Source of the DNA: Halobaculum roseum
GTDB lineage: Archaea; Halobacteriota; Halobacteria; Halobacteriales; Haloferacaceae
DNA length: 64,000 nucleotides
NCBI RefSeq assembly: GCF_019880245.1
Contig: NZ_CP082286.1
Location: 2,188,521 to 2,252,520 of the forward strand
Direction of reading: 5' to 3'
Position numbers and translations under genes: made by a program. The notes beneath the pieces are model-generated. The model had not been told where the DNA came from and made no database searches. It saw nothing but the letters and a program-made list of their open reading frames with translations. Of this stretch, positions 15,110 through 35,509 are shown in pieces. Position 1 is the first letter of the stretch; every line of letters starts with the position of its first letter.

Positions 15110-16110
15110 CGCTCTTGTGTAGCACTTTGTTGATCTCACAGCGTAGCTTTGATAGCGTGTTTGAGCGCTTCTCTTCCCGGTTTCCGCAGTAGTTTTCGTC
15201 GAAGCTGGAACGCTCGGAGATACTGTGTGAGCTTATCTTTTGAGACGCCTCGATGAGGCGAGAGCCACGGTCGCAGCAACGATCCGTGGCTCTCGCAGGT
15301 ATTGACGTGGACGTCTTCATTCGCGTATTCGCCGTCGCCGTGGACGACGTATTCGCGGTCGAATGCGTCGTCCTCGTCGAGTGGGTCGTAGGTACGAAAT
15401 CCGTCAGTGTAGACGGTCAGTGGCTCCTTCTCGCGGTTTGCGAGAAGGAGCCGAACCGTCGATTCATCGGCGGATTTCGCGGGGATCACATACCGATTGC
15501 CGGTGCCGCGATCGACGATCGTGAACACCGGCGGTTTGTCCTGCTCGTACGATCCTCGTCCACGCGTGGACAGGCCACGCGAGCGCGACCGACCGTCGCG
15601 CTCGCGGCCTTTCAGCCCTGCAGAAACGTAGACTTCGTCGATTTCGACGGGACCGACGAGGTCGAGCGAAGGCGCGTCGAGCGCCTTCGTGAAGCGCTCG
15701 ACGCGCTGGTAGATCGTTTTGTACTGAACGTCGATTTCGAGCTGAAGTTGGCGAAGACTCGTGTTAAACCGGAGAAACGCGTAAATCGAGAACAGCCACT
15801 TCCTGAGCGCGACTTTCGAATGGGCGAAAATCGTGCCGGTCTTGTCGTTGAATGTGCGGTCGCAATTCTTACAGAGATAGCGCTGAAAGTGCCCATAGCT
15901 GCCGTTCTTGACCGTTCGGTCAGAACGGCAGCGAGGGCAAGTAACACCGTTACGCCAGCGAACCTGCTGCAACAGGTCCGCTGCGACCGATTCCGACCCA
16001 AACACATCTAGCGGAATCATGCCTAACGGACACCGCTGACGCGGTGTCCTTGCTCTCTTCGATTCTACGGCGACAGCTAAGCGCCATCAACAATCTCCTA
16101 CAGAAGAGCG
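15110..16110 (-). mobile_element. IS1595-family insertion sequence, complete
   Basis: A 1001-bp element with imperfect terminal inverted repeats of about 25 bp. The left end reads CGCTCTTGTGTAG and the complement of the right end CGCTCTTCTGTAG; both continue to TTGTTGAT. It encodes one intact transposase on the minus strand and is flanked by direct repeats of the target. It inserted into the last gene of the trk operon. Because the ends, the gene and the target duplication are intact, it looks recently active. Confidence 0.92.
15136..16020 (-). CDS. IS1595-family transposase
   Basis: A 294-residue transposase. The N-terminal zinc ribbon has CPRCRSD and CKNCDRTF, followed by the DDE-type (ISXO2-like) domain: VEIDEVYVSAG holds the first Asp, VYTDGFRTYDPL the second, with HVNTCESHGSLLRPWL following, the stretch that carries the H/E-region of this family. 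It cuts and pastes the surrounding element. The length is normal for the archaeal group of the family and no frame defects are seen. Confidence 0.92.
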   Translation of the reverse strand: MIPLDVFGSESVAADLLQQVRWRNGVTCPRCRSDRTVKNGSYGHFQRYLCKNCDRTFNDKTGTIFAHSKVALRKWLFSIYAFLRFNTSLRQLQLEIDVQYKTIYQRVERFTKALDAPSLDLVGPVEIDEVYVSAGLKGRERDGRSRSRGLSTRGRGSYEQDKPPVFTIVDRGTGNRYVIPAKSADESTVRLLLANREKEPLTVYTDGFRTYDPLDEDDAFDREYVVHGDGEYANEDVHVNTCESHGSLLRPWLSPHRGVSKDKLTQYLRAFQLRRKLLRKPGREALKHAIKATL

Positions 16111-23992: not shown

Positions 23993-24310
23993 CGGTCAGT
24001 CGTCGCGTGCGAGGGCATCCGGTTCCGAGGTGGTTAGTGTCCGGTGCGGGGCAGCCGTCGGTCGAACGATCTGCATCATACGGGTCGCTCTCGGTGACCG
24101 GCGAAGTACTCACGGCGGGACACAGTGTTCGGTGGGGTGAAACGGGGTGCCCGCCCCCGCCCGCTCGCCCGGCCGGGCCTCGCTGCGCGCCGTGGGTGCT
24201 TGCCTCGGCCGGGCCGGAGCGACCGGTCGGCCCCGGGCGGTCCCGCCCGCGTGGCGGTTTGTCGGCGCCGCGACGGATGCGGCGCGCCCGAGCGCGTGCC
24301 GAGTACGCAC
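23993..24310. other. GC-rich divergent intergenic region
   Basis: 318 bases between the ATPase gene and the two small plus-strand genes. It is very GC-rich, with runs of GCCCGC/GGGCCG able to form local hairpins, and no clear TATA box for either direction. The best candidate is TAACCACC on the minus strand near 24033. No coding frame is convincing. Confidence 0.4.
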
Positions 24311-24601
24311 ATGACCGGACCAGATCGACTCGAGGACATGAGTACAGACGCCGACCGCTTCGAACGCGAACAGCTCGCCCGGGACCGGGATGCCGACCGG
24401 GCCGAAACGGCCGACGTGACCGCGGCGTTCGCTCGGGAGCTCGTCGACGATCTCATCGATGCCGACATCGTCACGGCGTGTCCCGATCCGCAGGTGTTCG
24501 TCCACGACCCGACCGGCGTCGCGTTCCGGTCGCGGCGCCAGTTGGCGGCGTTTCACCGCGGCTGGGCGACCGCACGAACCGGCGGCGGGGTGGACGAATG
24601 A
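24311..24601 (+). CDS. Small hypothetical protein of plasmid-type haloarchaeal blocks
   Basis: A 96-residue acidic protein: DADRFEREQLARDRDADRAE at the N-terminus, VTAAFARELVDDLIDADIV in the middle, and FVHDPTGVAFRSRRQLAAFH near the C-terminus. No enzyme motif is visible. Its stop overlaps the next gene's ATG (ATGA), so the two are coupled. The true start may be the ATG nine codons later (MSTDAD), which begins at the charged helix. The pair lies divergent to the large ATPase gene and probably belongs to the same element. Confidence 0.65.
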   Translation: MTGPDRLEDMSTDADRFEREQLARDRDADRAETADVTAAFARELVDDLIDADIVTACPDPQVFVHDPTGVAFRSRRQLAAFHRGWATARTGGGVDE

Positions 24602-24957
24602 GACGCACCGTGACCGGCTGTGCCTTCTGTGACGCAGGTCCCAGGGTCGATGTCGGGGCCGCGCACACGTGGGGCGTTGACGAACTCGTGACGCATCCGA
24701 TCTGTGTCGACTGTGCGGTTCGCGAGCGGACGGCACAACGGGCAGACCTGGTCGCCTGTGACGGCTGCGGGCTCGGCTTCGATACCGCGGCGGCGCTCAC
24801 GTCGTTCCGCGTCGAGGTCGGCCGTCTCGAAGGTGTGATCCGACTGTGTGGCGAGTGTAGCCCGGACGGGCCGGCGACACACTGGACGCGCGACCCCGAG
24901 GATCATGCTGTTCAGTTCGTGGACGGCTCGACCGCGAACGGCTCCGACCGGCGATAG
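24598..24957 (+). CDS. Cys-rich zinc-finger protein (DUF7558-like)
   Basis: A 119-residue protein with three Cys pairs: CAFCDAGP near the start, ICVDCAVRER and ACDGCGLGF in the middle, and LCGECSPDG late, with AHTWGVDELVTHP between the first and second. This order matches a haloarchaeal family that I recall as DUF7558 (name from memory). It is coupled to the gene before it by an ATGA overlap. Its last 46 bases overlap the 3' end of the convergent DUF429 gene. A nucleic-acid or protein-binding role is likely but unproven. Confidence 0.7.
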   Translation: MRRTVTGCAFCDAGPRVDVGAAHTWGVDELVTHPICVDCAVRERTAQRADLVACDGCGLGFDTAAALTSFRVEVGRLEGVIRLCGECSPDGPATHWTRDPEDHAVQFVDGSTANGSDRR

Positions 24958-25727
24958 ACTATCCGCATCGGTCGCCCTTTTGCGTCGGTTGGGAGCGGAT
25001 CGGCGTTCGGGAGAGTCTGAAACTCGTCAGGACCAGCCCGAGCTGTTAGCGCCAGTCCGAGAGCGTCGATTAGGTCGTCGGTCCCGATACCCGGATTCCC
25101 GTCGAGCTGGCGGGCTAAGTCCCGCCACGTACCCGGTTCGTACTCGGTACTCGCCGCCATCACATCCAATCGCGTAACCATTCCTTGGACGGTCGACTTG
25201 TTGAACTGGAGGTCTTCGTCGGCAAACGCTCTGAAGCAGACTTCTGGATGCCCCTCGACGACCGTCTCGTCTGCGGCCGTGTTCTCCAGCAACGCATCGA
25301 CCTGCTGGATTCCCTCGGTAATGCTTGCGGCTTGTTGCGTGAGGCCCTTTCCCGTGTGGTCCCGGTTCGTCTCACTGAGTTCGCTGTAGGTTGTCGCGTC
25401 ATCGCTCGCCGCGTCGACGGCCGCGCGACAGGGGGACGGGAACACCGACGACGAGCGGGGACCGATCACCTTGCGAGCGAGGCGATCACATCGTCGGGAG
25501 AGCGTTTCGTCATGTTTGAGGCAGTCGCCTGGGTCGTCAAGTGACCCGCACAGACCGATCGGGATGTCGACGACGATCCGGTCGGCGCTATCGCCGTGTT
25601 CCTGCCACAGCTCGTCGATCGTTTCGAAGATCTCGACGGCGGGCTCTCCATCCGTCGGATAGCCGACTGCGACCCACGCTCCAGAGTCCCAGTCCACGCC
25701 GATATGCTGCCATGGTGTCGTCGACAT
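24912..25727 (-). CDS. DUF429-family protein (RNase H-like fold)
   Basis: 271 residues beginning MSTTPWQHIGVDWDSGAW, with the family features GVDWDSG (first acidic position of an RNase H-like fold), VVDIPIGLCG, ARKVIGPRSSSVFPSPCR, ETVVEGHPEVCFRAF and IGTDDLIDALGLALTA. DUF429 members are predicted nucleases or nucleotide-binding proteins of unknown substrate. The start at 25727 is taken because the domain begins at once; the upstream extension is arginine-rich. The 3' end is convergent with and overlaps the Cys-rich gene by 46 bases. Confidence 0.85.
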   Translation of the reverse strand: MSTTPWQHIGVDWDSGAWVAVGYPTDGEPAVEIFETIDELWQEHGDSADRIVVDIPIGLCGSLDDPGDCLKHDETLSRRCDRLARKVIGPRSSSVFPSPCRAAVDAASDDATTYSELSETNRDHTGKGLTQQAASITEGIQQVDALLENTAADETVVEGHPEVCFRAFADEDLQFNKSTVQGMVTRLDVMAASTEYEPGTWRDLARQLDGNPGIGTDDLIDALGLALTARAGPDEFQTLPNADPLPTDAKGRPMRIVYRRSEPFAVEPSTN

Positions 25728-25821
25728 GCGGTGGTTTGCCGACGGCCGACGCAAAGCGGTTCGGGTTCGGACCGGTGACACGTTTTCGGCTCGCGCCGCT
25801 CGCCGCTTCCGCCCTCCGCGC

Positions 25822-25876
25822 CGCTCGCGAACGACCATTCCGGGCGTGCGGGCGCTCTCCGCACCGCCCGCGCCCG
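25822..25876 (+). repeat. 55-bp dispersed repeat, copy A
   Basis: These bases match 33441-33495 at 52 of 55 positions, including CGACCATTCCGGGC and GCGGGCGCTCTCCGCAC. Both copies lie in GC-rich non-coding DNA next to a PQQ-propeller lipoprotein gene. No coding role is seen. Confidence 0.75.
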
Positions 25877-25886
25877 ATCACCAAAA

Positions 25887-27218
25887 TTACGGCTCACGAA
25901 CTGCTAGCAGTCGGCTCTGGTAATTGTGGCCCGGGTTCGTCTGGATGTACGCCGTCTCCCCGACGACAACCGGTGGGCCAGACCGCTCGCCGATCTCCAG
26001 TCGCCAGCGGCGTGTCCCGTCCGCCCGTGCGACGGCTGCAAGTTCCTCACCCTGACCGATGTACACCGTATCCCCCGCGACAGTCGGCGATAGGACAGCC
26101 CCGTTGTCGGTCTCGTATGTCCATATGTTGCTCCCGTCGCTGACGTCAAGAGCGTGTAACCGTCCAGTGTCGGCATCGGGGTACCACTCACTCACGTACA
26201 GCGTCCCGTCCGCGTATGCTGGCGGGCTTAGCGTCTTCTTCGGGAGCGTCCAGTCCCACGCGACCTCACCCGAGGCGGCCTCAAGGGCGAACAGTCGTTC
26301 CGCCCCCGACCATGGGGAGTCATCCAATCCTGCGGACACGTGCGGCCTCAGGGCCGAGACGAAGACGTGGTCGGCGCCGGCGACGGCGTGTGCTTTGAGG
26401 TACCACCCGTCGCCGGCGTCCAACCTGGCGGTCCATTCCCGATCGCCGGTCCGGCGATCTACCGCATACACCTCCCGCGTCGCTCGATAACTCTCGTTCA
26501 TATCGAACGTGAACACACGATCGGCGGTGACTGCCGGCTTTGCCCAGTCGGTGCGCCACGTCGGTCCATTCTCCGTCTCGACGACGTGCGGGCCGAGCGG
26601 TGCCGTCCAGTCGATATCGCCGGTCGCCGCGTCACACCTGATCACCCCACGATTCGAGCCGAGATAGAGGGCGCCATCTCGGACGGTCGGACTGATCGGC
26701 GGATGCTCGCCGCTGGAGGCGGTAATCTCGTGTTCTCGAACCCACTCCTGGTCGCCGCTGGCTACATCCAACGCATGCAGCCGGACGACGTTCCCCGCTT
26801 CCCGTGTGATGACGAGCAGCCGATCGTCGTGGAGGGCCGGCGCCCACCGCATCGGCGGCAGCTCCGAGTTGGACCATTGCTGTTGGCCGTCTTCGGCGGA
26901 GAGTGTAAACGCGGTGCCACCAGTCCACGCTTCGGTTAGATAGAGGGCGTCGTCAACGACGGGTGGGTAGACGGGGCGGTCACCGAGGCTCCGCCATGCG
27001 ATCGTCGCGTCGTCTCGCGGGCCACGTGCATCCGGTGTGTGACGGGTGTGCTGGCTATCATAGCCGATCTGTGGCCAGGTGCCTGCCGGGATCGTGACGT
27101 CGGTGGAGGGGTCCTCCCCGTTCGGGGTGCCGGACCCACGACGGGGAGAGGAGAGACAGCCAGCGATCCCACCCGCGAGACCGCCACCTACCGTCGCGAG
27201 GAGCGTTCGGCGGCGCAT
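25887..27218 (-). CDS. Secreted PQQ-type beta-propeller lipoprotein (first paralogue)
   Basis: 443 residues. The signal MRRRTLLATVGGGLAGGIAGC has an Arg cluster and a lipobox Cys, indicating Tat-dependent export with a lipid anchor. The rest is a WD/PQQ-like propeller with repeating blades such as LHALDVASGDQEWV, YAVDRRTGDREWTA, FALEAASGEVAWDWTL and LHALDVSDGSNIWTYE, each with the A/G-x-D-x-x-T/S-G-x-x-x-W pattern. Such proteins scaffold extracellular complexes or bind quinone cofactors in dehydrogenases; no dehydrogenase residues are evident. A paralogue lies at 31761-33053 and shares an upstream motif. Confidence 0.88.
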   Translation of the reverse strand: MRRRTLLATVGGGLAGGIAGCLSSPRRGSGTPNGEDPSTDVTIPAGTWPQIGYDSQHTRHTPDARGPRDDATIAWRSLGDRPVYPPVVDDALYLTEAWTGGTAFTLSAEDGQQQWSNSELPPMRWAPALHDDRLLVITREAGNVVRLHALDVASGDQEWVREHEITASSGEHPPISPTVRDGALYLGSNRGVIRCDAATGDIDWTAPLGPHVVETENGPTWRTDWAKPAVTADRVFTFDMNESYRATREVYAVDRRTGDREWTARLDAGDGWYLKAHAVAGADHVFVSALRPHVSAGLDDSPWSGAERLFALEAASGEVAWDWTLPKKTLSPPAYADGTLYVSEWYPDADTGRLHALDVSDGSNIWTYETDNGAVLSPTVAGDTVYIGQGEELAAVARADGTRRWRLEIGERSGPPVVVGETAYIQTNPGHNYQSRLLAVREP

Positions 27219-27245
27219 GCGTCAGCATGTTCGGATGGCGGGATA

Positions 27246-27265
27246 CGTTTTCTGGAGACACAAAC
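27246..27265 (-). promoter_or_regulatory. Shared upstream motif of PQQ lipoprotein gene 1
   Basis: The 20 bases CGTTTTCTGGAGACACAAAC (plus strand) match 33081-33100 at 17 positions. Their near edge lies exactly 28 bases from the start codon in both genes. This is where the promoter of a leaderless gene sits, though it is not a normal TATA box. Confidence 0.6.
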
Positions 27266-27414
27266 GATCCCTGAACACTCTTGGTACCCTATCCCTGTCG
27301 AGACCGCCGTATTGAATGCAATACTGAAATCACTCGATTGGATTGTGAATGCTCCGTGAGAACGAGCTTGCGTGTTTGTATTATGGTTGAGGACTTGAAT
27401 GAAATTCGTTGGAT

Positions 27415-27424
27415 TCTATACCTT
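27415..27424 (+). promoter_or_regulatory. TATA box of the HalOD1 gene
   Basis: TCTATACCTT centred 26 bases before the GTG at 27445, in keeping with a leaderless transcript and supporting that start. Confidence 0.55.
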
Positions 27425-27444
27425 AGAGAAATCCATACTTCAGT

Positions 27445-27675
27445 GTGGAATACGAGATTGGTGCAGGGGAGTCGGTCAGCCAAGCCGTTCTTAGGTGTGT
27501 TAGTCAGTTCGAGGACACCGCTATCACTGAGCTTCCGCTACTCTACGAGTCAGTAGATCCTGACGCATTGAATCGGATATTCACAATGCAGTGCAATAGT
27601 CGCGTTTCGTTCGCTTTCAGTAATTCTCTGATTGATGTCTACAACAATGAATACCTCACTGTCGAAGCCGCGTAA
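27445..27675 (+). CDS. Stand-alone HalOD1 output-domain protein
   Basis: A 76-residue protein, MEYEIGAGESVSQAVLRCVS, then FEDTAITELPLLYESVDPDALNRIF and RVSFAFSNSLIDVYNNEYLTV. It is the whole HalOD1 domain (two halves: a helix with a PLYE..DPDAL motif and a beta-hairpin), first recognised as an output module in haloarchaeal signalling proteins. Here it stands alone, as often in accessory regions. The GTG start is supported by a TATA box 26 bases upstream. AT-richer than the neighbouring metabolic genes. The interaction partner is unknown. Confidence 0.85.
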   Translation: MEYEIGAGESVSQAVLRCVSQFEDTAITELPLLYESVDPDALNRIFTMQCNSRVSFAFSNSLIDVYNNEYLTVEAA

Positions 27676-27736
27676 CTCACATCTCGAAATACAACACCTA
27701 TGCTGACCCCAACGGAAAATATGGGTTTTCTGTCTC

Positions 27737-27803
27737 TATTGCTGACTGCTGTTCCGTCCAGAACGGCCCCAAGTAGAACGACTGGCAGATCTAAACTGTA
27801 AGT
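27737..27803 (+). repeat. Dispersed 67-bp intergenic repeat, copy 1
   Basis: The most divergent copy. It keeps GCTGACTGCTGTTCCGTCCA, GAACGGCCCC and GAACGACTGGCAGA but has lost the conserved right end (AAACTGTAAG in place of GGGACTGCGTAT). It lies between the HalOD1 gene and a small membrane-protein gene. Confidence 0.75.
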
Positions 27804-27864
27804 CGGTCAAGTGAATCGGTGATCCTCAAAATAGCTTTACTCTCGTCTGTGTATTGTCATTGAT

Positions 27865-28101
27865 ATGGTTCGGACGCGAGTGCTCCAAGGTCTCGGCGCT
27901 CTCAGTCTCATCGCCAGCATTCCACCCATCTGGTGGGCGTTTCAACGGCCAATGTGTCCGAACCTCAGTTCTGGAGGTTCATGTACTCCGAATCTCTTCT
28001 ACTTGGTTCCAGGACTGCTTGCCGCTCTCATCGGAATCGGCCTCATCGTGTTCGTGTATCGTCGACGCACACAGCAGGATCCGGCGAAGCCACCAGCGTG
28101 A
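27865..28101 (+). CDS. Small two-helix membrane protein
   Basis: 78 residues with two hydrophobic helices (VLQGLGALSLIASIPPIWWAF and LFYLVPGLLAALIGIGLIVFV) joined by a loop with two Cys (MCPNLSSGGSCTP), ending in a basic tail RRRTQQDPAKPPA. The two Cys in an external loop could form a disulphide. The family is unknown. The gene is framed by copies 1 and 2 of the 67-bp repeat, with its stop 16 bases before copy 2. Confidence 0.6.
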   Translation: MVRTRVLQGLGALSLIASIPPIWWAFQRPMCPNLSSGGSCTPNLFYLVPGLLAALIGIGLIVFVYRRRTQQDPAKPPA

Positions 28102-28117
28102 AAGAAATCGTCTGTAC

Positions 28118-28184
28118 TATCGCTGACCGTGCTTCCTTCCAGAACGCCCCCGAATAGGACGACTGGTAGGTCGGGACTGCGTAT
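28118..28184 (+). repeat. Dispersed 67-bp intergenic repeat, copy 2
   Basis: TATCGCTGACCGTGCTTCCT at the left, CCAGAACGCCCCCGAATAGG in the middle, and GGTCGGGACTGCGTAT at the right. Almost identical to copy 4. It separates the small membrane-protein gene from the convergent lipoprotein gene. Confidence 0.88.
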
Positions 28185-28211
28185 CTCACAGCGATAGTGT
28201 GGCGAGACCTT

Positions 28212-28838
28212 TCAGTATTCAGTTTCGGTACTACATCCCATCGCTGTTGAAACAAACGAATGTTCAACTCCTCCATCGGGCTGTACATACACACCGGTTG
28301 CAGAATCGTTACAATCGAATGCTGATTGCGGTACGGTGAGTTCAGTTGTTTCCTTTGAGACAGTAATGGAGTTATCATACGCTGAAGGTACCATAATCCC
28401 GATTTGGGCGATCCCCTGAGAGGGGAACTGTAATTTAGTGTCGATAGCAGGCTGTGAGGCCTTCTCGTCTTGGATTCGGAGTGCAATCTGTCGGGCACTA
28501 TCTTGCTGATTCTCAACCACAACGTAGTGCGGGCGAATCTCGCTTGGGAGGTCCTCCCGATCTCCAACGCGAAACGTGACGAAGGGTTCTTTTGTTGAGT
28601 TTACCTCTAATGGTACTTCCCACTCGCGAGAACCGCCCTCCTTCCGAGTTGAATCCGTCACTCTGGAGTGAGGCGATTGAGCCGTCTCACCGGTCTTCTG
28701 TTCGCTAGTAGTCGGACTTTGAGTATCGGCCAATTCATCAGATGTACCGTTCTCTGTCGGCGTAGTAGCGCACCCGGCAAGTGTACAGACCACTGCTCCC
28801 CCAACCAATCGGAGAGCCGAGCGTCGAGATTGGACCAT
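28212..28838 (-). CDS. Predicted secreted lipoprotein of unknown function
   Basis: 208 residues. The N-terminus MVQSRRSALRLVGGAVVCTLAGC carries an Arg pair and a lipobox, followed by a low-complexity Thr/Ser/Glu linker of about 50 residues, as is usual for haloarchaeal lipoproteins. The C-terminal ~130 residues are beta-rich (WEVPLEVNSTKEPFVTFRVG, HYVVVENQQDSARQIALRI), suggesting an immunoglobulin-like domain. No family is recognised. It lies alone between repeat copies 2 and 3 and on the opposite strand to its neighbours. Confidence 0.65.
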   Translation of the reverse strand: MVQSRRSALRLVGGAVVCTLAGCATTPTENGTSDELADTQSPTTSEQKTGETAQSPHSRVTDSTRKEGGSREWEVPLEVNSTKEPFVTFRVGDREDLPSEIRPHYVVVENQQDSARQIALRIQDEKASQPAIDTKLQFPSQGIAQIGIMVPSAYDNSITVSKETTELTVPQSAFDCNDSATGVYVQPDGGVEHSFVSTAMGCSTETEY

Positions 28839-28880
28839 ATGTCTGATAGCTATCTAATTGGTAAGTGCTTTCTCTGTATC

Positions 28881-28947
28881 TATCGCTGACCGCTCTTCTT
28901 TCCAGAACGCCCCCAACTAAAACGACTGATAGGCCGGGATTGCGTAT
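28881..28947 (+). repeat. Dispersed 67-bp intergenic repeat, copy 3
   Basis: TATCGCTGACCGCTCTTCTT, then CCAGAACGCCCCCAACTAAA, then GGCCGGGATTGCGTAT. Same orientation as the other four copies, lying between the divergent lipoprotein and winged-helix genes. Confidence 0.88.
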
Positions 28948-29066
28948 CCAACGTCGAGGTCATCGCGTCCGGTCACCAAACTCGTTCTAGTGTTACCCAC
29001 TTAATCAGCACTCACAATTGAAGCAATGCTGACGGACTACTTCCGCTTGGGGCGCATTCGGACGGT

Positions 29067-29396
29067 GTGGATAGCGCCCAAGACAAGCGTACACTCGATG
29101 ACAGTCTCGATGCTCTCGGGCACATCCAGCGTCGGAAGTTGCTGCGTGCACTACTCGTTCACAACCCACAGGACGATGAATCAGTAAAGATCGATTCGTC
29201 CGAATCGAACGAGGAAGAAGTTGAACGGCTCATCGGGATGAAGCACGTCCACCTCCCGAAACTGGAGGAGTACGGGTTCATCACGTGGAACCGGGACACG
29301 AACAAGGTTTCGAAGGGTCCGAACTTCGAGGAGATCCGTCCGCTACTGGAGATGCTCGCTGCCCACGAGGACGAACTGCCCGACGGGTGGCTGTAA
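29067..29396 (+). CDS. Winged-helix regulator-like protein (DUF7344 type)
   Basis: 109 residues: LDDSLDALGHIQRRKLLRAL resembles the first helices of the haloarchaeal winged-helix family I recall as DUF7344, followed by HVHLPKLEEYGFITWNRDTN, the usual recognition-helix and wing region, and a helical tail EIRPLLEMLAAHEDELPDGWL. It probably binds DNA as a dimer. It starts with GTG at 29067; no good TATA box is seen at leaderless distance. It lies between repeat copies 3 and 4. Confidence 0.75.
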   Translation: MDSAQDKRTLDDSLDALGHIQRRKLLRALLVHNPQDDESVKIDSSESNEEEVERLIGMKHVHLPKLEEYGFITWNRDTNKVSKGPNFEEIRPLLEMLAAHEDELPDGWL

Positions 29397-29436
29397 CCCA
29401 CACTGTGAATGAGATGACTGGTACATTCACTGTATA

Positions 29437-29503
29437 TATCGCTGACCGTGCTTGCTTCCAGAACGCCCCCGAATAGGACGACTGGTTGGTCGGGACTGCG
29501 AGC
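29437..29503 (+). repeat. Dispersed 67-bp intergenic repeat, copy 4
   Basis: TATCGCTGACCGTGCTTGCT, then CCAGAACGCCCCCGAATAGG, then GGTCGGGACTGCG. The last few bases differ from the consensus. It separates the winged-helix gene from the convergent MFS gene. Confidence 0.88.
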
Positions 29504-29528
29504 CTGGCACTGTTCGCGGACCGCATGG

Positions 29529-30767
29529 TCACCCCGACTCTGCGATGAGGGGCCCTCCCCACAGGAGAATCGCCGCTGCTCCGATGACGAGAACTACTCC
29601 ACCGACTCCGAGCGCAAACAGCGGTGAGACGGCGTCGGAGATGACGCCACTCCCGAGTTGGAAGGGGATGACAGCTAGGCCGCTGACCATCGCCATCGCA
29701 CTCAACACGGTCGCCCGCCCGAGCGTTTCGACGCGGTCGTTGATGTACTGGCCGGCGAACGAACGGGTGACGTCGGACACCCCACGAATGAGGAGGAACG
29801 TCGGGAGCGCGAGGACGGGCAGGAAGTACATCCCGACCAACGCCCCGCCGACAGCGAACGGGATGACCAGAAACCACGTTTGAACGCCGACCGTCTCCTT
29901 GATCGCCCCCGTGTAATAGCTGAGGCCTGCACCGACGAGACTGTACGCTGCATAGAACCACCCCAACAACGCTTCGACCTGCGGCGCTGGGACCCCGAGG
30001 TCGAGGACGACCGTCTCGAAGATCGGTTGGAGGAAGACGAACACGAGGTACGTCACCGCAGCGTACAGTACGTAGTAATACAGCAGGAACGCACGCAATT
30101 GACGACGAGCGAGAACATCCCGCACGATTTGAACAGTGCGGCGAAGACTCAGTGTGTCGGTCGCAGTCTGCTTGTACGTCTCGGGTTCGTCGATCGTCAG
30201 CAGTACCGCGACGCCGATGCTCGTGACGCCCGCCGCGACGAACCACGGGTACGAGAGGTCGATACTCCCGAGATAGCCGCCGAGAATCGCTGCCACCGCT
30301 CCGACAGCCAACGCCGCCGACTCGCCACGGCCTCTGACATGGGCAAACTCGTCCTCCGAGAGGTCGTCGGTAAGGGTGTCGTAGAGCCACGCGTCCTCGC
30401 TGCCGGAGCGGAAGTTGTACCCCATCGACCAGCAGACGTAGAGCCCCGCCAACGGAAGAAACGAGTTTGAAAGCCCGATACCGAACAGCGTCACTGCGAT
30501 CAACGCGGTTCCGAGGAGCAGGCTGTTGCGTCGTCCCACACGGTCGCCGACGTAGCCGGTCGGGATCTCCCCGAGCAGCGTTGTCAAGTTGTAGATCGCT
30601 TCGAGAACCGCGATCTGGGTAAACGAGAGTCCCTGAGCGAGAAAGAAGAGATACATAACCGGCCGGTAAAACTCGACGGCTTTCGTGGATTTGTAGAGAT
30701 AGTATTTCAGGATGGGACCGGAGATCACTCGAGTACTCCAGTTTCCGACACGCCCAGCCATTTCCAC
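29529..30767 (-). CDS. Major facilitator superfamily transporter
   Basis: 412 residues with about 12 hydrophobic helices. The loop 2-3 motif GYVGDRVGRRNSLLLGTALI is the classic MFS signature (G-x3-D-R-x-G-R-R). The N-terminal half starts LKYYLYKSTKAVEFYRPVMYL, and the conserved acidic DAWLYDTL follows helix 4, as in a group of drug-efflux-like MFS proteins common in archaea and Firmicutes. The substrate is unknown. The gene lies alone between repeat copies 4 and 5. Confidence 0.88.
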   Translation of the reverse strand: MEMAGRVGNWSTRVISGPILKYYLYKSTKAVEFYRPVMYLFFLAQGLSFTQIAVLEAIYNLTTLLGEIPTGYVGDRVGRRNSLLLGTALIAVTLFGIGLSNSFLPLAGLYVCWSMGYNFRSGSEDAWLYDTLTDDLSEDEFAHVRGRGESAALAVGAVAAILGGYLGSIDLSYPWFVAAGVTSIGVAVLLTIDEPETYKQTATDTLSLRRTVQIVRDVLARRQLRAFLLYYYVLYAAVTYLVFVFLQPIFETVVLDLGVPAPQVEALLGWFYAAYSLVGAGLSYYTGAIKETVGVQTWFLVIPFAVGGALVGMYFLPVLALPTFLLIRGVSDVTRSFAGQYINDRVETLGRATVLSAMAMVSGLAVIPFQLGSGVISDAVSPLFALGVGGVVLVIGAAAILLWGGPLIAESG

Positions 30768-30859
30768 CTCGGCCGATGGCGAGCCGACACGTATGTCCTG
30801 TTATTATCGATTCGCCGGGAGGGAAATACGGGGACGATCGAGGTGACGGGCCCTTGATC

Positions 30860-30925
30860 TCTCGCTGACCGCTCCTCTTGCAGAATGGCCACAAATAACC
30901 CGACTGGTACGCCGGGACTGCGTAT
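30860..30925 (+). repeat. Dispersed 66-bp intergenic repeat, copy 5
   Basis: TCTCGCTGACCGCTCCTC at the left, CAGAATGGCCACAAATAACC in the middle and CGCCGGGACTGCGTAT at the right. It is one base shorter than the others. It lies between the MFS gene and a small membrane-protein gene, all copies reading in the same direction. Confidence 0.85.
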
Positions 30926-30933
30926 TGAACGTG

Positions 30934-31119
30934 CTATGGAAGCCGTTTAGCAGTAAGGTACGCCACGACAATCGCAACCATCCCACCGATCACGAACCCG
31001 GCAGCGGATTCAAACACGACGTATAGGGTGTATCCAACGCCGAAAAACGCCAATCCGGTAGTGGCGAGGAGGATTCTAAACTGCATATCGAGAACCGCCA
31101 TTTCCTCGAACCGGCTCAT
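30934..31119 (-). CDS. Small two-helix membrane protein
   Basis: 61 residues: a short charged start MSRFEEMAVLDMQF, then helices RILLATTGLAFFGVGYTLYVV and AAGFVIGGMVAIVVAYL, with a basic end TAKRLP. A good TATA box sits 27 bases upstream, so the gene is probably expressed as a leaderless transcript. The family is unknown. Its 3' end lies nine bases from repeat copy 5. Confidence 0.6.
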   Translation of the reverse strand: MSRFEEMAVLDMQFRILLATTGLAFFGVGYTLYVVFESAAGFVIGGMVAIVVAYLTAKRLP

Positions 31120-31431
31120 ATTCTATACTACTTGAGACTTCTCTATAGTGCTTGGGTTGGTCAGTTCACTCTCTGTCTCGGTCACGGGATTCTGACGAGA
31201 ATCAGAGATGTTGCGACCTAACTCTCTCCATCGTTCATCTGTCCTTCCCACTTCGATCGGGATGTGACAACTTCTATACAAAATTCGATTCCGACTCTGC
31301 GGTTCGGTGGTGCTTTTTTGCGCCTTCACAGAGTGCAGGCGCACTCGGTCGTGCCTGCACAGCACAGGTGATTCGAGATGTGATACCACTGCCAGCGACA
31401 GGTGAACCGTCAGATGGAAGCTCGATGACCG
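31120..31431. other. Intergenic stretch before the TnpB remnant
   Basis: About 310 bases holding the minus-strand promoter at 31144-31152 and otherwise no supported gene. Near 31330-31370 one plus frame reads TAQVIRDVIPLPATGEPSDG, faintly like the N-terminal part of IS1341-type TnpB proteins. Some of this may therefore be decayed transposon sequence belonging to the fragment that follows. Confidence 0.35.
31144..31152 (-). promoter_or_regulatory. TATA box of the small membrane-protein gene
   Basis: On the minus strand the bases around 31144-31152 read ACTATAG and are centred about 27 bases before the ATG at 31119. Confidence 0.55.
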
Positions 31432-31731
31432 ATGGCGGTCTCCGAGGCTGAACAGGTGACGCAAAGGGGGATGGACATCCTCGCCCTCGATATCGGCGCG
31501 AACGCCCTCGTGGGGTGTACGACGATCGCGGGCGACCAGTACTGGGACAGTGGCCAGGACCCGTTCCGACAGTTCCGTGAAGCGACCGAACGCATCGCCC
31601 ACGCCAAAGCGAAGCTGCCGGATGGACAGCACACCAGCGAGCGGACGCTCCGTGAACGCGGAGTGGATATCGATCCGCTGGTCGCTCGCTTTTTGAACAG
31701 ATACGCGGAGCCCGACGATCACGGGGTGTAG
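31432..31731 (+). pseudogene. Fragment of an IS200/IS605 (IS1341-type) TnpB nuclease gene
   Basis: About 99 codons. ILALDIGANALVGCTTIAG matches the RuvC-I region of haloarchaeal TnpB (DIGAN with the first catalytic Asp), and FRQFREATERIAHAKAKLPD continues the usual alpha-helical insert (ERTLRERG follows). The frame ends at 31731, before RuvC-II, the zinc finger and RuvC-III. The N-terminal recognition lobe is missing too. TnpB is an RNA-guided nuclease of IS605-type elements; this piece is non-functional. No TnpA gene or intact element ends were found nearby. Confidence 0.7.
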
Positions 31732-31760
31732 CTAGTTTCTTGCCAGCCACCGTTGCGCTG

Positions 31761-33053
31761 CTACTCGCGGCTCCCGATTGCGTAGATCCGCCCATCAGCG
31801 ATTCCGACGTAACACATCCCGTGTGCCAGTGCGACCTGTGTGTCCATGACGTAGCCAGCCATCCCGATATCGGGGACGGTGATCTCGATGGTCCACGCTC
31901 GGCTGTCACTCGTCTCGTAGGCAACGACGGAGTCATTCCGTGGAACGATCACACCACCGTCGCCGGCGGCAGGCGGTTGGTTATCGCCGCTTTCGGCCGA
32001 GCGCCACCGAATCGAGCCATCAGCAGTGTCGATCGCGACGACGCCACCGTGATGGGTGTTCACGTACGCTGTCTCGGCGGTGACGACCGGTGACGGGATC
32101 GCGTTGCCGTAATCGTCGTCGACCACCGTCGTCCGCCACAGCACGGTTCCATCGGTGGTCTCGGCGGCGACGAGTTCCTCGGCGATGCCCGGGACGTACA
32201 GACGGCCGTCGGCGACCGTCGGGGTGCCCTGAATGTCCGGACAACACTCGTCTGGGGTGGCGATCTGTTTGCTCCACCGTCGATCCCCGGTCGTCGCATC
32301 GAGTGCGGCAATGCGGCCGTCAGTTAATCCGACGTAGACTCCCTCGCTGTCGGCACAGGGTGCCGTGTAGCACTCGCCAGCGATGGCTGTACGCCACTGT
32401 TGGGTGCCATCCAGCGTATAGGCGTACACCGCGTTATCTTCGTCTCGCGTCGCCAGGTAGCACGTCTCGTCCACAACTGCTGGCGAGCCAGTTACATCCG
32501 GAATCGTGTCCGTCCACTGGGTCGACCCGTCGTCGCGGGCAAGGGCTGTTAGCGTCGCCTGCTCGTAGTCCGGGCCGCGGGTGACGGCCAGAAGTGTCTC
32601 GTCAACGAGCGCAAGGCCGACGGCACGGCCGATTCCGAGATCCACGTCGAGTTGCTGCTCGCCGGATTCGGCGTCGAACCCTGCAAGGTGGGTTGTCGAG
32701 TACTCGGCATCATCCGGTGATTCTACATAGGCGATGTAGACTCGGCCCGAGCCGGCGATCGGTGCCGTTGAGCTATGGGGGTCGGTCCCTGGACGGCGAA
32801 GCCAGGCAATGTCGATGTCGCCCTGTGGGACTGTGGTGGCGGCGTTTCCGGTTCGACCGCCATCGTGACCGTCCTGCACCCAGCGGCCGGCCGTCGTGTA
32901 GCTCCCAGTGTACGCGTCGTTCGTGAATGGTTTCGGAACTGACTCTCCGTCAGCGATTCCGGGAACGTTCGGGGTGGTACAGCCGGCGAAGGCTAGGACA
33001 CCTCCACCGGCTACCGTCTGTTGGAGGAGCTGTCGACGCGTCAGCGGAGCCAT
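31761..33053 (-). CDS. Secreted PQQ-type beta-propeller lipoprotein (second paralogue)
   Basis: 430 residues: MAPLTRRQLLQQTVAGGGV leads to the lipobox Cys (LAFAGC), a Tat-like lipoprotein signal. Propeller blades follow: LAGFDAESGEQQLDVDLG, LTALARDDGSTQWTDTIP, AYTLDGTQQWRTAIA, IAALDATTGDRRWSKQIA and VAIDTADGSIRWRSA. The ATG at 33053 is chosen because the signal peptide starts there; a longer frame upstream has no signal. A motif upstream is shared with the first paralogue at 25887-27218. Several extra Cys pairs (DECCPDIQG, GECYTAPC) may form disulphides outside the cell. Confidence 0.88.
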   Translation of the reverse strand: MAPLTRRQLLQQTVAGGGVLAFAGCTTPNVPGIADGESVPKPFTNDAYTGSYTTAGRWVQDGHDGGRTGNAATTVPQGDIDIAWLRRPGTDPHSSTAPIAGSGRVYIAYVESPDDAEYSTTHLAGFDAESGEQQLDVDLGIGRAVGLALVDETLLAVTRGPDYEQATLTALARDDGSTQWTDTIPDVTGSPAVVDETCYLATRDEDNAVYAYTLDGTQQWRTAIAGECYTAPCADSEGVYVGLTDGRIAALDATTGDRRWSKQIATPDECCPDIQGTPTVADGRLYVPGIAEELVAAETTDGTVLWRTTVVDDDYGNAIPSPVVTAETAYVNTHHGGVVAIDTADGSIRWRSAESGDNQPPAAGDGGVIVPRNDSVVAYETSDSRAWTIEITVPDIGMAGYVMDTQVALAHGMCYVGIADGRIYAIGSRE

Positions 33054-33080
33054 ATTCTCAGTGGCTCGAGCTGGGAGAAA

Positions 33081-33100
33081 CGTCTTCTGGAGGGACAAAC
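33081..33100 (-). promoter_or_regulatory. Shared upstream motif of PQQ lipoprotein gene 2
   Basis: CGTCTTCTGGAGGGACAAAC matches the first paralogue's element at 17 of 20 positions and has its near edge at the same 28-base distance from the start codon. A common regulator or promoter form is inferred. Confidence 0.6.
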
Positions 33101-33440
33101 AGTTGTTCGCGTCAATTGGGACCGCCTCGAAAGCTCCCGGACGCTCGCCGGCCGCGAACCGCTGCACGCCTCGTTCCTACGGTGCTTGCGTCGTGGGGGC
33201 ACGTCGAACGCCCGGCCCCTTTCAGTCCCACCCGGAACTGTTGTGGGGCCAGCGCTCTCAATCGGTTGGCTAGTGTGATTGATACGGCCCGCCCCGCTCG
33301 CCGCTGCCGCCCTCCGCTTGGCTCACGGCTCCCTGCGGTCGCCGTTCGCATCGAGGCGCTCCCTGCTCGCGGGTCGCGGTGCTCCCCGCTCGCTGACGTG
33401 GTCTCCCGTCGGTCGACCACGCAACGGTCGTGCCTCGCTT

Positions 33441-33495
33441 CGCTCGCGACCGACCATTCCGGGCATGCGGGCGCTCTCCGCACTGCCCGCGCCCG
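33441..33495 (+). repeat. 55-bp dispersed repeat, copy B
   Basis: Matches 25822-25876 at 52 of 55 positions in the same orientation. Flanking sequence (CCGCTCGCCGCTGCCGCC at 33295 onward) also resembles DNA just left of copy A, with about 120 extra bases inserted. Confidence 0.75.
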
Positions 33496-33525
33496 TTCCG
33501 GGCTGAAGTGCATGTGCCCTCGGCG

Positions 33526-33588
33526 CCAGCGGGAAAGCGTGGGGGGTTGCGCGGCGTGGCTGCTCACCCCCCACGCTTTCTCCGCTGG
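33526..33588. repeat. Long inverted repeat (hairpin 1)
   Basis: The left arm CCAGCGGGAAAGCGTGGGGG pairs with the right arm around CCCCCCACGCTTTCTCCGCTGG with a single one-base bulge, giving about 22 paired bases and an 18-base loop. Confidence 0.8.
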
Positions 33589-33641
33589 TCGCTCGCTCCG
33601 GGCGGGTCGGCGCGCGGCGCTGGGTGGGGTCGCCGTCGCGG

Positions 33642-33696
33642 GCGCGCTCTCGCTCGCGCCCACAGGGCGCTCGCGAAGGCGCGAGCGAGAGCGCGC
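33642..33696. repeat. Perfect 19-bp inverted repeat (hairpin 2)
   Basis: GCGCGCTCTCGCTCGCGCC at 33642-33660 is exactly complementary to 33678-33696, with a 17-base loop. Confidence 0.85.
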
Positions 33697-33725
33697 AGTC
33701 GTGACTGGTCGGTTTGTGAGGAAAT

Positions 33726-33745
33726 CCCCGTGCTGGAACACGGGG
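33726..33745. repeat. Perfect 7-bp inverted repeat (hairpin 3)
   Basis: CCCCGTG-CTGGAA-CACGGGG, a short stable hairpin. Hairpins of this form occur at the right ends of haloarchaeal IS605-type elements, but no transposase gene adjoins it. Confidence 0.7.
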
Positions 33746-33780
33746 TGTCGGGCGCGTCGTGAGCGCCTTCGGAGACAGCA

Positions 33781-34641
33781 GTGGAACGTAATCGTGTCTT
33801 CGATGAAAAGGATTCGGCAGTATCGAGCGGGAATCAGGACATCGCGGACGAGAGCCCGGAGCTGCAGGCGACGGTCGAGTTGCGGACGCAGGCGAAAGTC
33901 GATTCGGAGGCGATCGAGAAGGTCGCCGACACGGACGAGCTGGATCACCCGTACGGGATGACGCTGGAAGCCGAGGAGAAGTGGGAGGCCCGGGAGGCCG
34001 AGAAGGAGCGGACGCGCGAGCGACGGCGGACGCAGTCGTCGCTGCGCGAGCAGGGCAGTCGGGTGAGCGCGGGCCGGCGGGCGACACAGAGCCAGCGCGC
34101 GTTTCGCGAGCGGGCGGCGAGCGTGGATCCGGCGTTCGACCCGACGACGGACCCCCGGGAGGAACTGGAGCGTGACCAGGTGGCGGCGGTAAACGAGCAA
34201 GCCGAGCGGATCGCGAGCGAGGTGCGCGAGAGCGGGACGCGAGCGGCCGTGAGTCGGCGGCTGGCCGAGCAGGTGCACCGCGGGAAGAGCGTCCTGAGCG
34301 CGAGCGTGGCCGTAACCGAGGCCGAGCGGCGCCGGCCCGGGACGGTCGTCCCCATCGACGAGTTGGAGGCGGTTTCGCGCACGGAGGTGAGCATCGCGGG
34401 TCGCGTCGAGGAACTGTGGGATCCCTCCCATCCGAGCATCGCGCAGGTCGGGCTCGTCGCGGACGACACGGGAAAGACCCGTGTGACGGTGTGGAAGAAA
34501 TCGAACGCCCCCCGGATGGACGAGGGCGAACGGGTTCGGATCCGCGGTGCGGCCCGGAACTGGTACGAGGGGCGCGTCTCGCTGGCCGTGACCCGGTCGA
34601 CATCGATCCACTTCCCCGAGCGCGGTCGCTGGTGGGAGTAG
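33781..34641 (+). CDS. Coiled-coil/OB-fold protein, probably DNA-binding
   Basis: 286 residues. Residues ~1-150 are highly charged and helical (EEKWEAREAEKERTRERRRT, EELERDQVAAVNEQAERIA), likely coiled coil. The C-terminal ~100 residues look like an OB fold of the RPA/SSB type: EVSIAGRVEELWDPSHPSI, VGLVADDTGKTRVTVWKKS, GERVRIRGAARNWYEGRVSL. That pattern (nucleic-acid-binding strand, DxTG turn, VTVW) is seen in archaeal RPA-like proteins. It starts with GTG. Similar proteins occur on haloarchaeal plasmids; single-strand DNA binding is inferred. Confidence 0.75.
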   Translation: MERNRVFDEKDSAVSSGNQDIADESPELQATVELRTQAKVDSEAIEKVADTDELDHPYGMTLEAEEKWEAREAEKERTRERRRTQSSLREQGSRVSAGRRATQSQRAFRERAASVDPAFDPTTDPREELERDQVAAVNEQAERIASEVRESGTRAAVSRRLAEQVHRGKSVLSASVAVTEAERRRPGTVVPIDELEAVSRTEVSIAGRVEELWDPSHPSIAQVGLVADDTGKTRVTVWKKSNAPRMDEGERVRIRGAARNWYEGRVSLAVTRSTSIHFPERGRWWE

Positions 34642-34804
34642 GCTGATCGGGAGACTCTCTTTTTATTGTGGGCCGGACCAACCCAAGCCCCGCCGCCCCG
34701 CCCACCGCTCCGTGCTCGCTCCCTCCGGTCGCTGTGCGCGCAGCCACGACCCTGAGCTGTCGACTTATCCTTTCGCATAGAATCAGCTTGTCCGGGCACT
34801 ACCC

Positions 34805-34812: not shown

Positions 34813-35509
34813 GGTAGTGTTCAGATAAGCTGGTTCCATGCGAAGGCGAACGCTTGAAGCCAATTTTCGACGGTGTCTGCTTCGGCGTGGCTAAAACAGT
34901 TTGAGAACTGGTTAGTTCGTCGTTTTAGTTCTCTGAAGACACGTTCAACGGCATTCCGATTACCATGTTTTTCGTATCTGTAATCGAGGCCGTGTCGGTG
35001 AAGTGCCGCTTGCAGCCACGGTGCGGAATCGACGAGAAAGAGCGCGTCATCGACGAGATGTTTGTCGCGGAGTTCCGCAAGAAACATCTCGGTAATCGCT
35101 TGATTTCTCGTCGGAGAGAGCTTCACGTGCAACAAACGATTCGTGTCGGGATCGACGGCAGCGTACAGCCAGAACCGTTGGTCGTTGAGCTGGATCACGG
35201 TCTCGTCAACCGCGACGTGATCCGGATTGGCGCCATCGAGGGGCTGTAGATCGGCCTTCTGAACCCAGTTGTGAACGGTCGTTCGACAGCGGTCGACACC
35301 CAACCTATCGAGAATTGAAACGGTATCCGAAAGTGATAGTCCAGCCAAATGGAGTCGGATACCGAGCTTCATCGCCGGCTCGGGTGTCGCCTCTCGCTCC
35401 ACAAAATCTAACTCGAAGCAATCGCTACCTCCGTCGAGGCGGGCGATTTCGAGCATTGATCACTCAAAAATCGTTCCGCCTCACTCTTCATCCTTATCTG
35501 AACACCGCC
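34813..35509 (-). mobile_element. IS6-family insertion sequence, complete (697 bp)
   Basis: Terminal inverted repeats: the left end reads GGTAGTGTTCAGATAAG and the complement of the right end GGCGGTGTTCAGATAAG, 15 of 17 matching. One transposase gene fills the element, and 8-bp direct repeats flank it. The right end lies about 20 bases before the TATA box of the downstream regulator gene, so the element may alter that gene's expression. Confidence 0.93.
34821..35456 (-). CDS. IS6-family transposase
   Basis: 211 residues, normal for the short haloarchaeal IS6 group. An HTH-like N-terminal part (LSLSDTVSILDRLGVDRCRT, TVHNWVQKA) is followed by the DDE domain: VAVDETVIQLNDQRFWLYAA (first Asp), ALFLVDSAPWLQAALHRHG (second Asp), and HGNRNAVERVFRELKRRTNQ (Glu). 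It catalyses replicative transposition of the element. The frame is intact and its stop lies within the left inverted repeat region. Confidence 0.95.
   Translation of the reverse strand: MLEIARLDGGSDCFELDFVEREATPEPAMKLGIRLHLAGLSLSDTVSILDRLGVDRCRTTVHNWVQKADLQPLDGANPDHVAVDETVIQLNDQRFWLYAAVDPDTNRLLHVKLSPTRNQAITEMFLAELRDKHLVDDALFLVDSAPWLQAALHRHGLDYRYEKHGNRNAVERVFRELKRRTNQFSNCFSHAEADTVENWLQAFAFAWNQLI

Follow-up and report, generated by a model that had tools for sequence, protein, structure and literature searches.

Integrons of the canonical attC/IntI kind had been thought to be bacterial until they were reported in archaeal metagenome-assembled genomes in 2022 (PMC9668308); the text of that report does not mention Halobacteria by that name. 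Small gene modules without a recombinase of their own are also described, as the dif modules (pdif) of Acinetobacter plasmids (PMC6449649, PMC12907356), and haloarchaea of the genus Haloquadratum contain palindrome-associated transposable elements (PATEs), miniature inverted-repeat transposable elements (MITEs) and small mobile repeats (SMRs) (PMC3119063). Here we describe five copies of a ~70-bp repeat that separate unrelated single genes in a 64,000-nucleotide stretch of a Halobaculum genome (G000:C1:2188521-2252520, hereafter the window). Judging from sequence comparison, the repeats are probably recombination sites of an integron-like gene-cassette system that would act on double-stranded DNA through a tyrosine recombinase supplied in trans.

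An unfiltered profile search recovered exactly five copies in the window, with scores of 59-74 bits; the next-best score there, 5.9, was at chance level. All five are on the plus strand and intergenic, one in each successive gap, as a preliminary description of this DNA had noted, and the gaps that hold them are convergent, divergent and tandem alike. Copy 1 (27730-27798, profile R1, 64.4 bits) has the right-end decay already reported for it, with ACTGT in place of GGGACTGC. Copies 2 (28112-28180, 70.2 bits), 3 (28874-28943, 74.1 bits) and 4 (29430-29499, 70.0 bits) are followed by copy 5 (30854-30921, 59.3 bits), which has a one-base deletion and an altered left end. Alignment with copies from elsewhere showed that the repeat unit extends over ~70 bp, from CTGTATCTATCG to GGGACTGC; the length first given, 66-67 bp, had missed 6-7 bp at the left, where the unit starts with CTG. 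A degenerate pattern of the conserved columns matched four of the five copies without mismatch and found nothing in 100 shuffled windows, copy 5 being missed because of its indel. The conserved ends are CTGTATCTA(T)C and GATAGnnnGGnACTGC. Their outermost ~11 bp, CTGTATCTATC and GATAGGTACTG, are similar in inverted orientation at 5.25 of 11 positions, compared with 2.78 (standard deviation 0.31) in shuffles, a statistic that overstates independence because the copies share descent. A motif in the right flank, CGAGCGAAGCGAGCGG, was considered as part of the site and dropped, as it is a multi-copy repeat on its own. The reverse strand had been said to read as peptide-like in copies 2 and 4; it has the stops reported in copies 1 and 3, but inspection by eye also found a stop in the copy of the congener G008 and one-base deletions in copies 2 and 5, and it is not coding.

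The window genome carries eight copies in total, the remaining three being at C1:1251632, at C1:1252919 and on C2; the copies at C1:1251632 and C1:1252919 flank a single gene for a pyridoxal phosphate (PLP) enzyme resembling threonine synthase. Orthologous copies are present in five congeners. The wider search of haloarchaea proposed at the outset found convincing matches within the genus only, among 170 genomes of the family, and weak family-level matches outside it (E ~0.008) were taken as chance. Neither the window-type (type-1) repeat in plasmids, phages and viral contigs nor a general site pattern in viral contigs gave a match.

The gain or loss of single units was followed by comparing 11 genomes, one per species. 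In six species, the spacer that separates a CDC48-type AAA ATPase gene from PhoU holds one repeat copy. Each of the six spacers contains, in order, a ~150-bp conserved left end (LE) closing in CTGC, cargo that differs between species, the orthologous repeat and a conserved right flank. The cargo consists of a lipoprotein gene with a repeat and the PLP-enzyme gene in G000, the PLP-enzyme gene alone in H. magnesiiphilum (G009), another lipoprotein gene in G008, a membrane protein gene in G007, other small genes in H. halobium (G003) and a non-coding unit in G002. G000 and G009 differ here by exactly one unit, a 652-bp lipoprotein gene plus repeat, cut at CTGC^GAACGTATCGG. In G009 the LE ends in ..AAGGGCTGC and is followed by GAACGTATCGG; in G000 it ends in ..GGGGGCTGC and is followed by the 652-bp segment and then by the same GAACGTATCGG, after which the block is 97% identical to that of G009. 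At this junction the LE has little in common with the repeat (GGG.CTGC, a few bases), so homologous recombination is an unlikely source of this difference. Compared with the other species, G009 and G002 have the whole cassette segment of the spacer in the opposite orientation (L018, L037, L038); long inverted repeats, AACCTCTTTT..AAAACCCGTTCATGCCAAAAGGCCG, stand at its two ends.

Units with the same ends were also found elsewhere. The lipoprotein block of the window (28173-28878) has a 95% identical copy at G000:C1:1500922, which begins GGGACTGC^GTAT, ends CTCTGTA and lies inside a ~3.4-kb integrative element. A neighbour of the lipoprotein unit, which we call lipo2, occurs in five contexts (both edges were read in four, and one is truncated) and is joined at or near CTG. 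In H. gomorrense a 131-bp non-coding unit is 99% identical between two loci; it is cut at CTG on both sides and preceded by unrelated sites of the type called C below. A block of H. halobium homologous to the MFS transporter unit of the window ends at 30859, in the first bases of copy 5. For the small membrane gene next to the C2 repeat, G006 has a relative whose start is at GCGTAT. Units also recur beside C cores that lack a repeat body (L098, L122, L027). The integrative element that holds the moved lipoprotein copy occupies a tRNA-Gly gene (L098:4310-7710, G000:C1:~1500309-1503709), is absent in congeners and contains a zinc-ribbon tyrosine integrase (PF00589) and two lipoprotein units. Its integrase was rejected as the cassette recombinase, as it appears tied to its own tRNA attachment site.

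A profile built from the last 60 bp of six LE sites was scored at 1,598 CTGC positions in 15 loci. The top match, at 27.4 (mean 7.8, standard deviation 1.9), was the window lipoprotein unit in its moved copy, at the left edge; next came a previously unknown site before a NUDIX gene on G008:C2, and then the C2 repeat, at its right end. A genus-wide search with the LE model found further sites, among them a weak one, located upstream of the left-hand neighbour gene of the C2 repeat. Two matches in the congener G005 proved to be right ends of another repeat. G005 is without the window repeat and carries instead a second ~70-bp repeat, CTGTATCTACCAGTACG..TAGCCGATAGGAAGGTACTGC, in seven copies, six on the plus strand and one on the minus strand; two of these copies enclose a single GNAT gene. 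The window-type and second-type repeats align at their ends and differ in their middles, and a third, probable site type of 66 bp was seen at G005:C2:144553-144618. A profile trained without window-type repeats still found the right ends of copy 3 (17.2) and of the C2 copy. With a score of at least 16 as the threshold, all 15 C sites found in the 698 kb scanned were intergenic, in DNA with a coding fraction of 76-84%, and column-permuted profiles averaged 0.07-0.5 hits per source. G005 locus L157 has what looks like a contiguous core, CCGATAGGAAG-GGTCTGA-CTTTCTATCAG, with inverted arms around a 7-bp centre, as would be expected of an unoccupied tyrosine-recombinase site. At the CDC48-PhoU position of a seventh species, G010, the arrangement is C|two genes|C′; this two-gene unit between C and C′ ends (L051:4881-6552) is without Pfam matches.

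These comparisons show exact unit boundaries, gain or loss of units and their recurrence at unrelated C sites, as well as two, probably three, site types that share their ends and their intergenic location. We propose the following model. Each ~70-bp site has a left end C′, CTG|TATCTA(T/A/C)C, and a right end C, approximately TAGCCGATAGGnAGGnnCTG|C, which form imperfect inverted ends around a type-specific middle. Mobile units, usually of one gene in either direction, span from a C end to the next C′ end and are joined at the shared CTG or a few bases from it. At some loci the first position is marked by a separate attI-like site of ~50 bp that ends in the same C core. The units would be excised as circles and inserted at C cores by a tyrosine recombinase that works in trans on double-stranded sites. 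The window array has no attI-like site or integrase that we found beside it and would correspond to a cassette cluster lacking an integrase. The suggestion in the preliminary description that the array resembles gene cassettes is largely supported, by exact gain or loss of units, units with the same ends elsewhere, an attI-like site and a second repeat type, but not in respect of attC-like folding. The likeness to a folded cassette site through CGCTGACCG and CGGGACTGCG was not supported: single strands of nearly all copies of both types folded no better than shuffles (one copy, c1252919, had a z of about -3), there was no covariation support for a fold of the repeat, and the conserved inverted parts are the outermost ~11 bp.

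A candidate for the recombinase is a 381-residue PF00589 protein present in 10 of the 11 genomes, mostly on Halobaculum secondary replicons. It is closest to XerC/XerA models, did not match models specific to integron integrases and, as read in the sequence, has the expected catalytic residues R-K-H-R-H-Y. C sites lie 600 bp downstream of its gene in G009 and 196 bp downstream in G003. A decayed fragment of a relative of this protein was seen ~9 kb right of the window end, at G000:C1:2261491-2261709 (L172:9222-9553). Several observations weigh against the cassette model, and the first concern this candidate. A strong C site lies within 600 bp downstream of its gene in only 2 of 12 loci; relatives of the family are present in 244 plasmid records and are widespread on haloarchaeal plasmids; and the protein may have a different function, for instance multimer resolution. 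The proposed look for tyrosine recombinases near other copies found none adjoining the window array or most of the sites read. Given the 2/12 association and the plasmid-wide family, our confidence in this protein is low, and we regard it as a weak candidate for the driver of the system. In addition, the last orthologous repeat of the CDC48-PhoU spacer is static while the gene to its left varies, unlike in a strict integron; cassette starts have little conserved sequence; and the 652-bp difference between G000 and G009 could be a loss in G009. Our comparisons are at the species level only, and the repeat copies are related by descent. Finally, copy 3 lies within a 71-bp stretch that is 100% identical to G000:C1:1251632-1251702 (L018:8633-8702), ~1 Mb away and with other genes around it. 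This identity could reflect a recent event, movement or gene conversion, that affected just the repeat. As the genes to the left and right differ, repeats can evidently move or convert independently of genes.

A narrower form of the cassette model, which we consider rather unlikely, is that the sites are of the Xer/dif type and that the units resemble Acinetobacter dif modules, moved by an ordinary Xer-like recombinase of the secondary replicons from one of its own resolution sites to another. The apparently contiguous core with inverted arms at L157 would fit, as would the XerC/XerA-like protein with a C site 196-600 bp downstream of its gene in two genomes. However, a 70-bp module has a site at each end, an arrangement that differs from 28-bp dif sites; the sites occur on the main chromosome too, and their association with the recombinase gene is weak.

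We also considered the possibility that the 70-bp repeat is a non-autonomous element (a MITE, PATE or small mobile repeat) that inserts between genes by means of a transposase in trans, the apparent movement of gene units being due to their carriage between two copies. Haloarchaea are rich in such elements (PMC3119063), the repeat has ~11-bp inverted ends, and inspection revealed GTA..GTA flanks at copies 2 and 3 and at the C2 copy. However, a three-base target duplication of this kind fails for copies 4 and 5 and for the CDC48-PhoU copies. Comparisons among the genomes revealed no insertion of a repeat only; differences were of a gene or of a gene with its repeat, as between G000 and G009, and units are also found beside C cores that lack the repeat body. 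Moreover, five of the eight genomic copies lie within 3.2 kb in one direction, which is not expected of scattered insertion. An IS200/605-like PATE was raised because c1252919 folds and was dropped because the other copies do not. We therefore judge this explanation improbable as an account of the array, although the 71-bp sequence found identical in two unrelated contexts means that the 70-bp modules themselves may still have originated as MITEs or small mobile repeats.

Homologous recombination between conserved flanks, with the repeats as passive passengers at hot spots, could draw on the CDC48 and PhoU genes and the flanking inverted repeats for homology, and a segment is indeed inverted in G009 and G002; yet the overlap between LE and repeat is too short for it, and the junctions formed at this place, like those at unlinked loci, are exact, which makes this reading very improbable. 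We give almost no weight to the idea that the repeat is a common regulatory or RNA element (a terminator, promoter element or small RNA) duplicated with the genes: CTGTATCTATCG does lie upstream of several minus-strand genes, but there was no Rfam match at E<=1 over window positions 26000-33000, no fold signal and no covariation, a terminator or promoter was rejected in view of gaps that are convergent, divergent and tandem, and the exact unit junctions would be left unexplained. The MITE, terminator and small-RNA options of the preliminary description are thus the weaker ones, given the lack of an Rfam match, a fold signal, a consistent target duplication or a fixed gene orientation.

The genes of the array were identified by open reading frames and by a Pfam scan of about ten window proteins. 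Left of copy 1 is a HalOD1 output-domain gene (27445-27675, plus strand; PF18545, E=7e-16), in a unit whose left edge was not located. The unit between copies 1 and 2 (27799-28111) holds an open reading frame for a 78-residue small membrane protein (27865-28101, plus strand) with no Pfam family above the cut-off, and that between copies 2 and 3 (28181-28873) holds the lipoprotein gene (28212-28838, minus strand). Between copies 3 and 4 (28944-29429) is a gene at 29067-29396 on the plus strand, and between copies 4 and 5 (29500-30853) a major facilitator superfamily (MFS) transporter gene (29529-30767, minus strand; PF07690). The small membrane protein, lipoprotein and MFS transporter are as first described, whereas the supposed winged-helix protein at 29067-29396 is a DUF7344 protein (PF24035). 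The region right of copy 5 (30922-31119) contains an open reading frame for a 61-residue small membrane protein (30934-31119, minus strand); the right edge of this unit was not located. As already stated in the preliminary description, no integrase was found in the window: tblastn with two tyrosine recombinase queries detected no homologue, and the ten or so proteins scanned, which are part of the window genes, included none.

The array lies in a 7.6-kb island (25858-33435) that is absent in G005, where the flanks are contiguous with a ~40-bp overlap. These flanks (window 24030-25857 and 33436-34699) adjoin on G005:C3, and relatives of them occur on several secondary replicons (C2, C4), which suggests an integrated plasmid-like region in the chromosome. 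An N-terminal remnant of OrfB/TnpB (IS605) is inside the island just right of the array (31432-31731), and transposases of the ISXO2/IS1595 type and resembling IS240/IS6 were identified with Pfam at 15136-16020 and 34821-35456, respectively.

More broadly, we suggest tentatively that Halobaculum, and perhaps other haloarchaea, possess a gene-capture system of their own that arose independently of integrons. It would combine double-stranded C/C′ sites that cross over at CTG, attI-like sites for entry at fixed places in the chromosome such as CDC48-PhoU, and attC-like repeats of ~70 bp typical of each species, with a haloarchaeal tyrosine recombinase, acting in trans, that shuffles single-gene cassettes across the genus. 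Such a system looks to be previously undescribed. If it exists, single-gene capture would have evolved in another form, with non-attC sites, in cultured haloarchaea; the turnover that these genomes show in small genes for lipoproteins, membrane proteins and regulators would be explained, and the mechanism would become testable in the laboratory.

Like integrons, the loci described here contain single unrelated genes in arrays, ~70-bp sites whose ends are conserved and whose middles diverge, a partly species-specific site type, an attI-like first-position site with a related core, a conserved crossover triplet and clusters without an integrase, and they appear to include the precise insertion of a cassette (gene plus site) at an attI-type site. 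Unlike integrons, they have no RYYYAAC/GTTRRRY boxes or G^TT crossover; the junctions are at CTG(C), and the nearest match to an attC box, ATCTAAC, is found only in a few solo C′ ends. There is also no foldable hairpin, the genes run in both directions, the last repeat is static as its neighbour gene changes, and no IntI was seen next to the array or to most of the LE sites that were read. As attC boxes, attC folding and IntI were not found, we do not call the system an integron despite its integron-like working. The PATEs, MITEs and SMRs of Haloquadratum are similar in being short, non-coding, multi-copy and transposase-free, some without target duplication; here, however, genes between repeats move with exact ends, the arrays run in one direction and there are few copies per genome. 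The nearest analogue is provided by the dif modules, which host-type recombinases move although the modules have no integrase of their own. Standard dif sites are ~28 bp, with a 6-bp spacer flanked by two 11-bp Xer arms, and the modules between them alternate in orientation; inverted arms and one apparently contiguous core are seen here, but length and arrangement differ, in that 70-bp two-ended modules with other arm sequences stand in tandem array in an archaeal host, and any Xer dependence would be putative. The two systems have in common small gene modules without their own recombinase, the inverted arms of an apparent tyrosine-recombinase core site that bound them and a distribution over both plasmid and chromosome.

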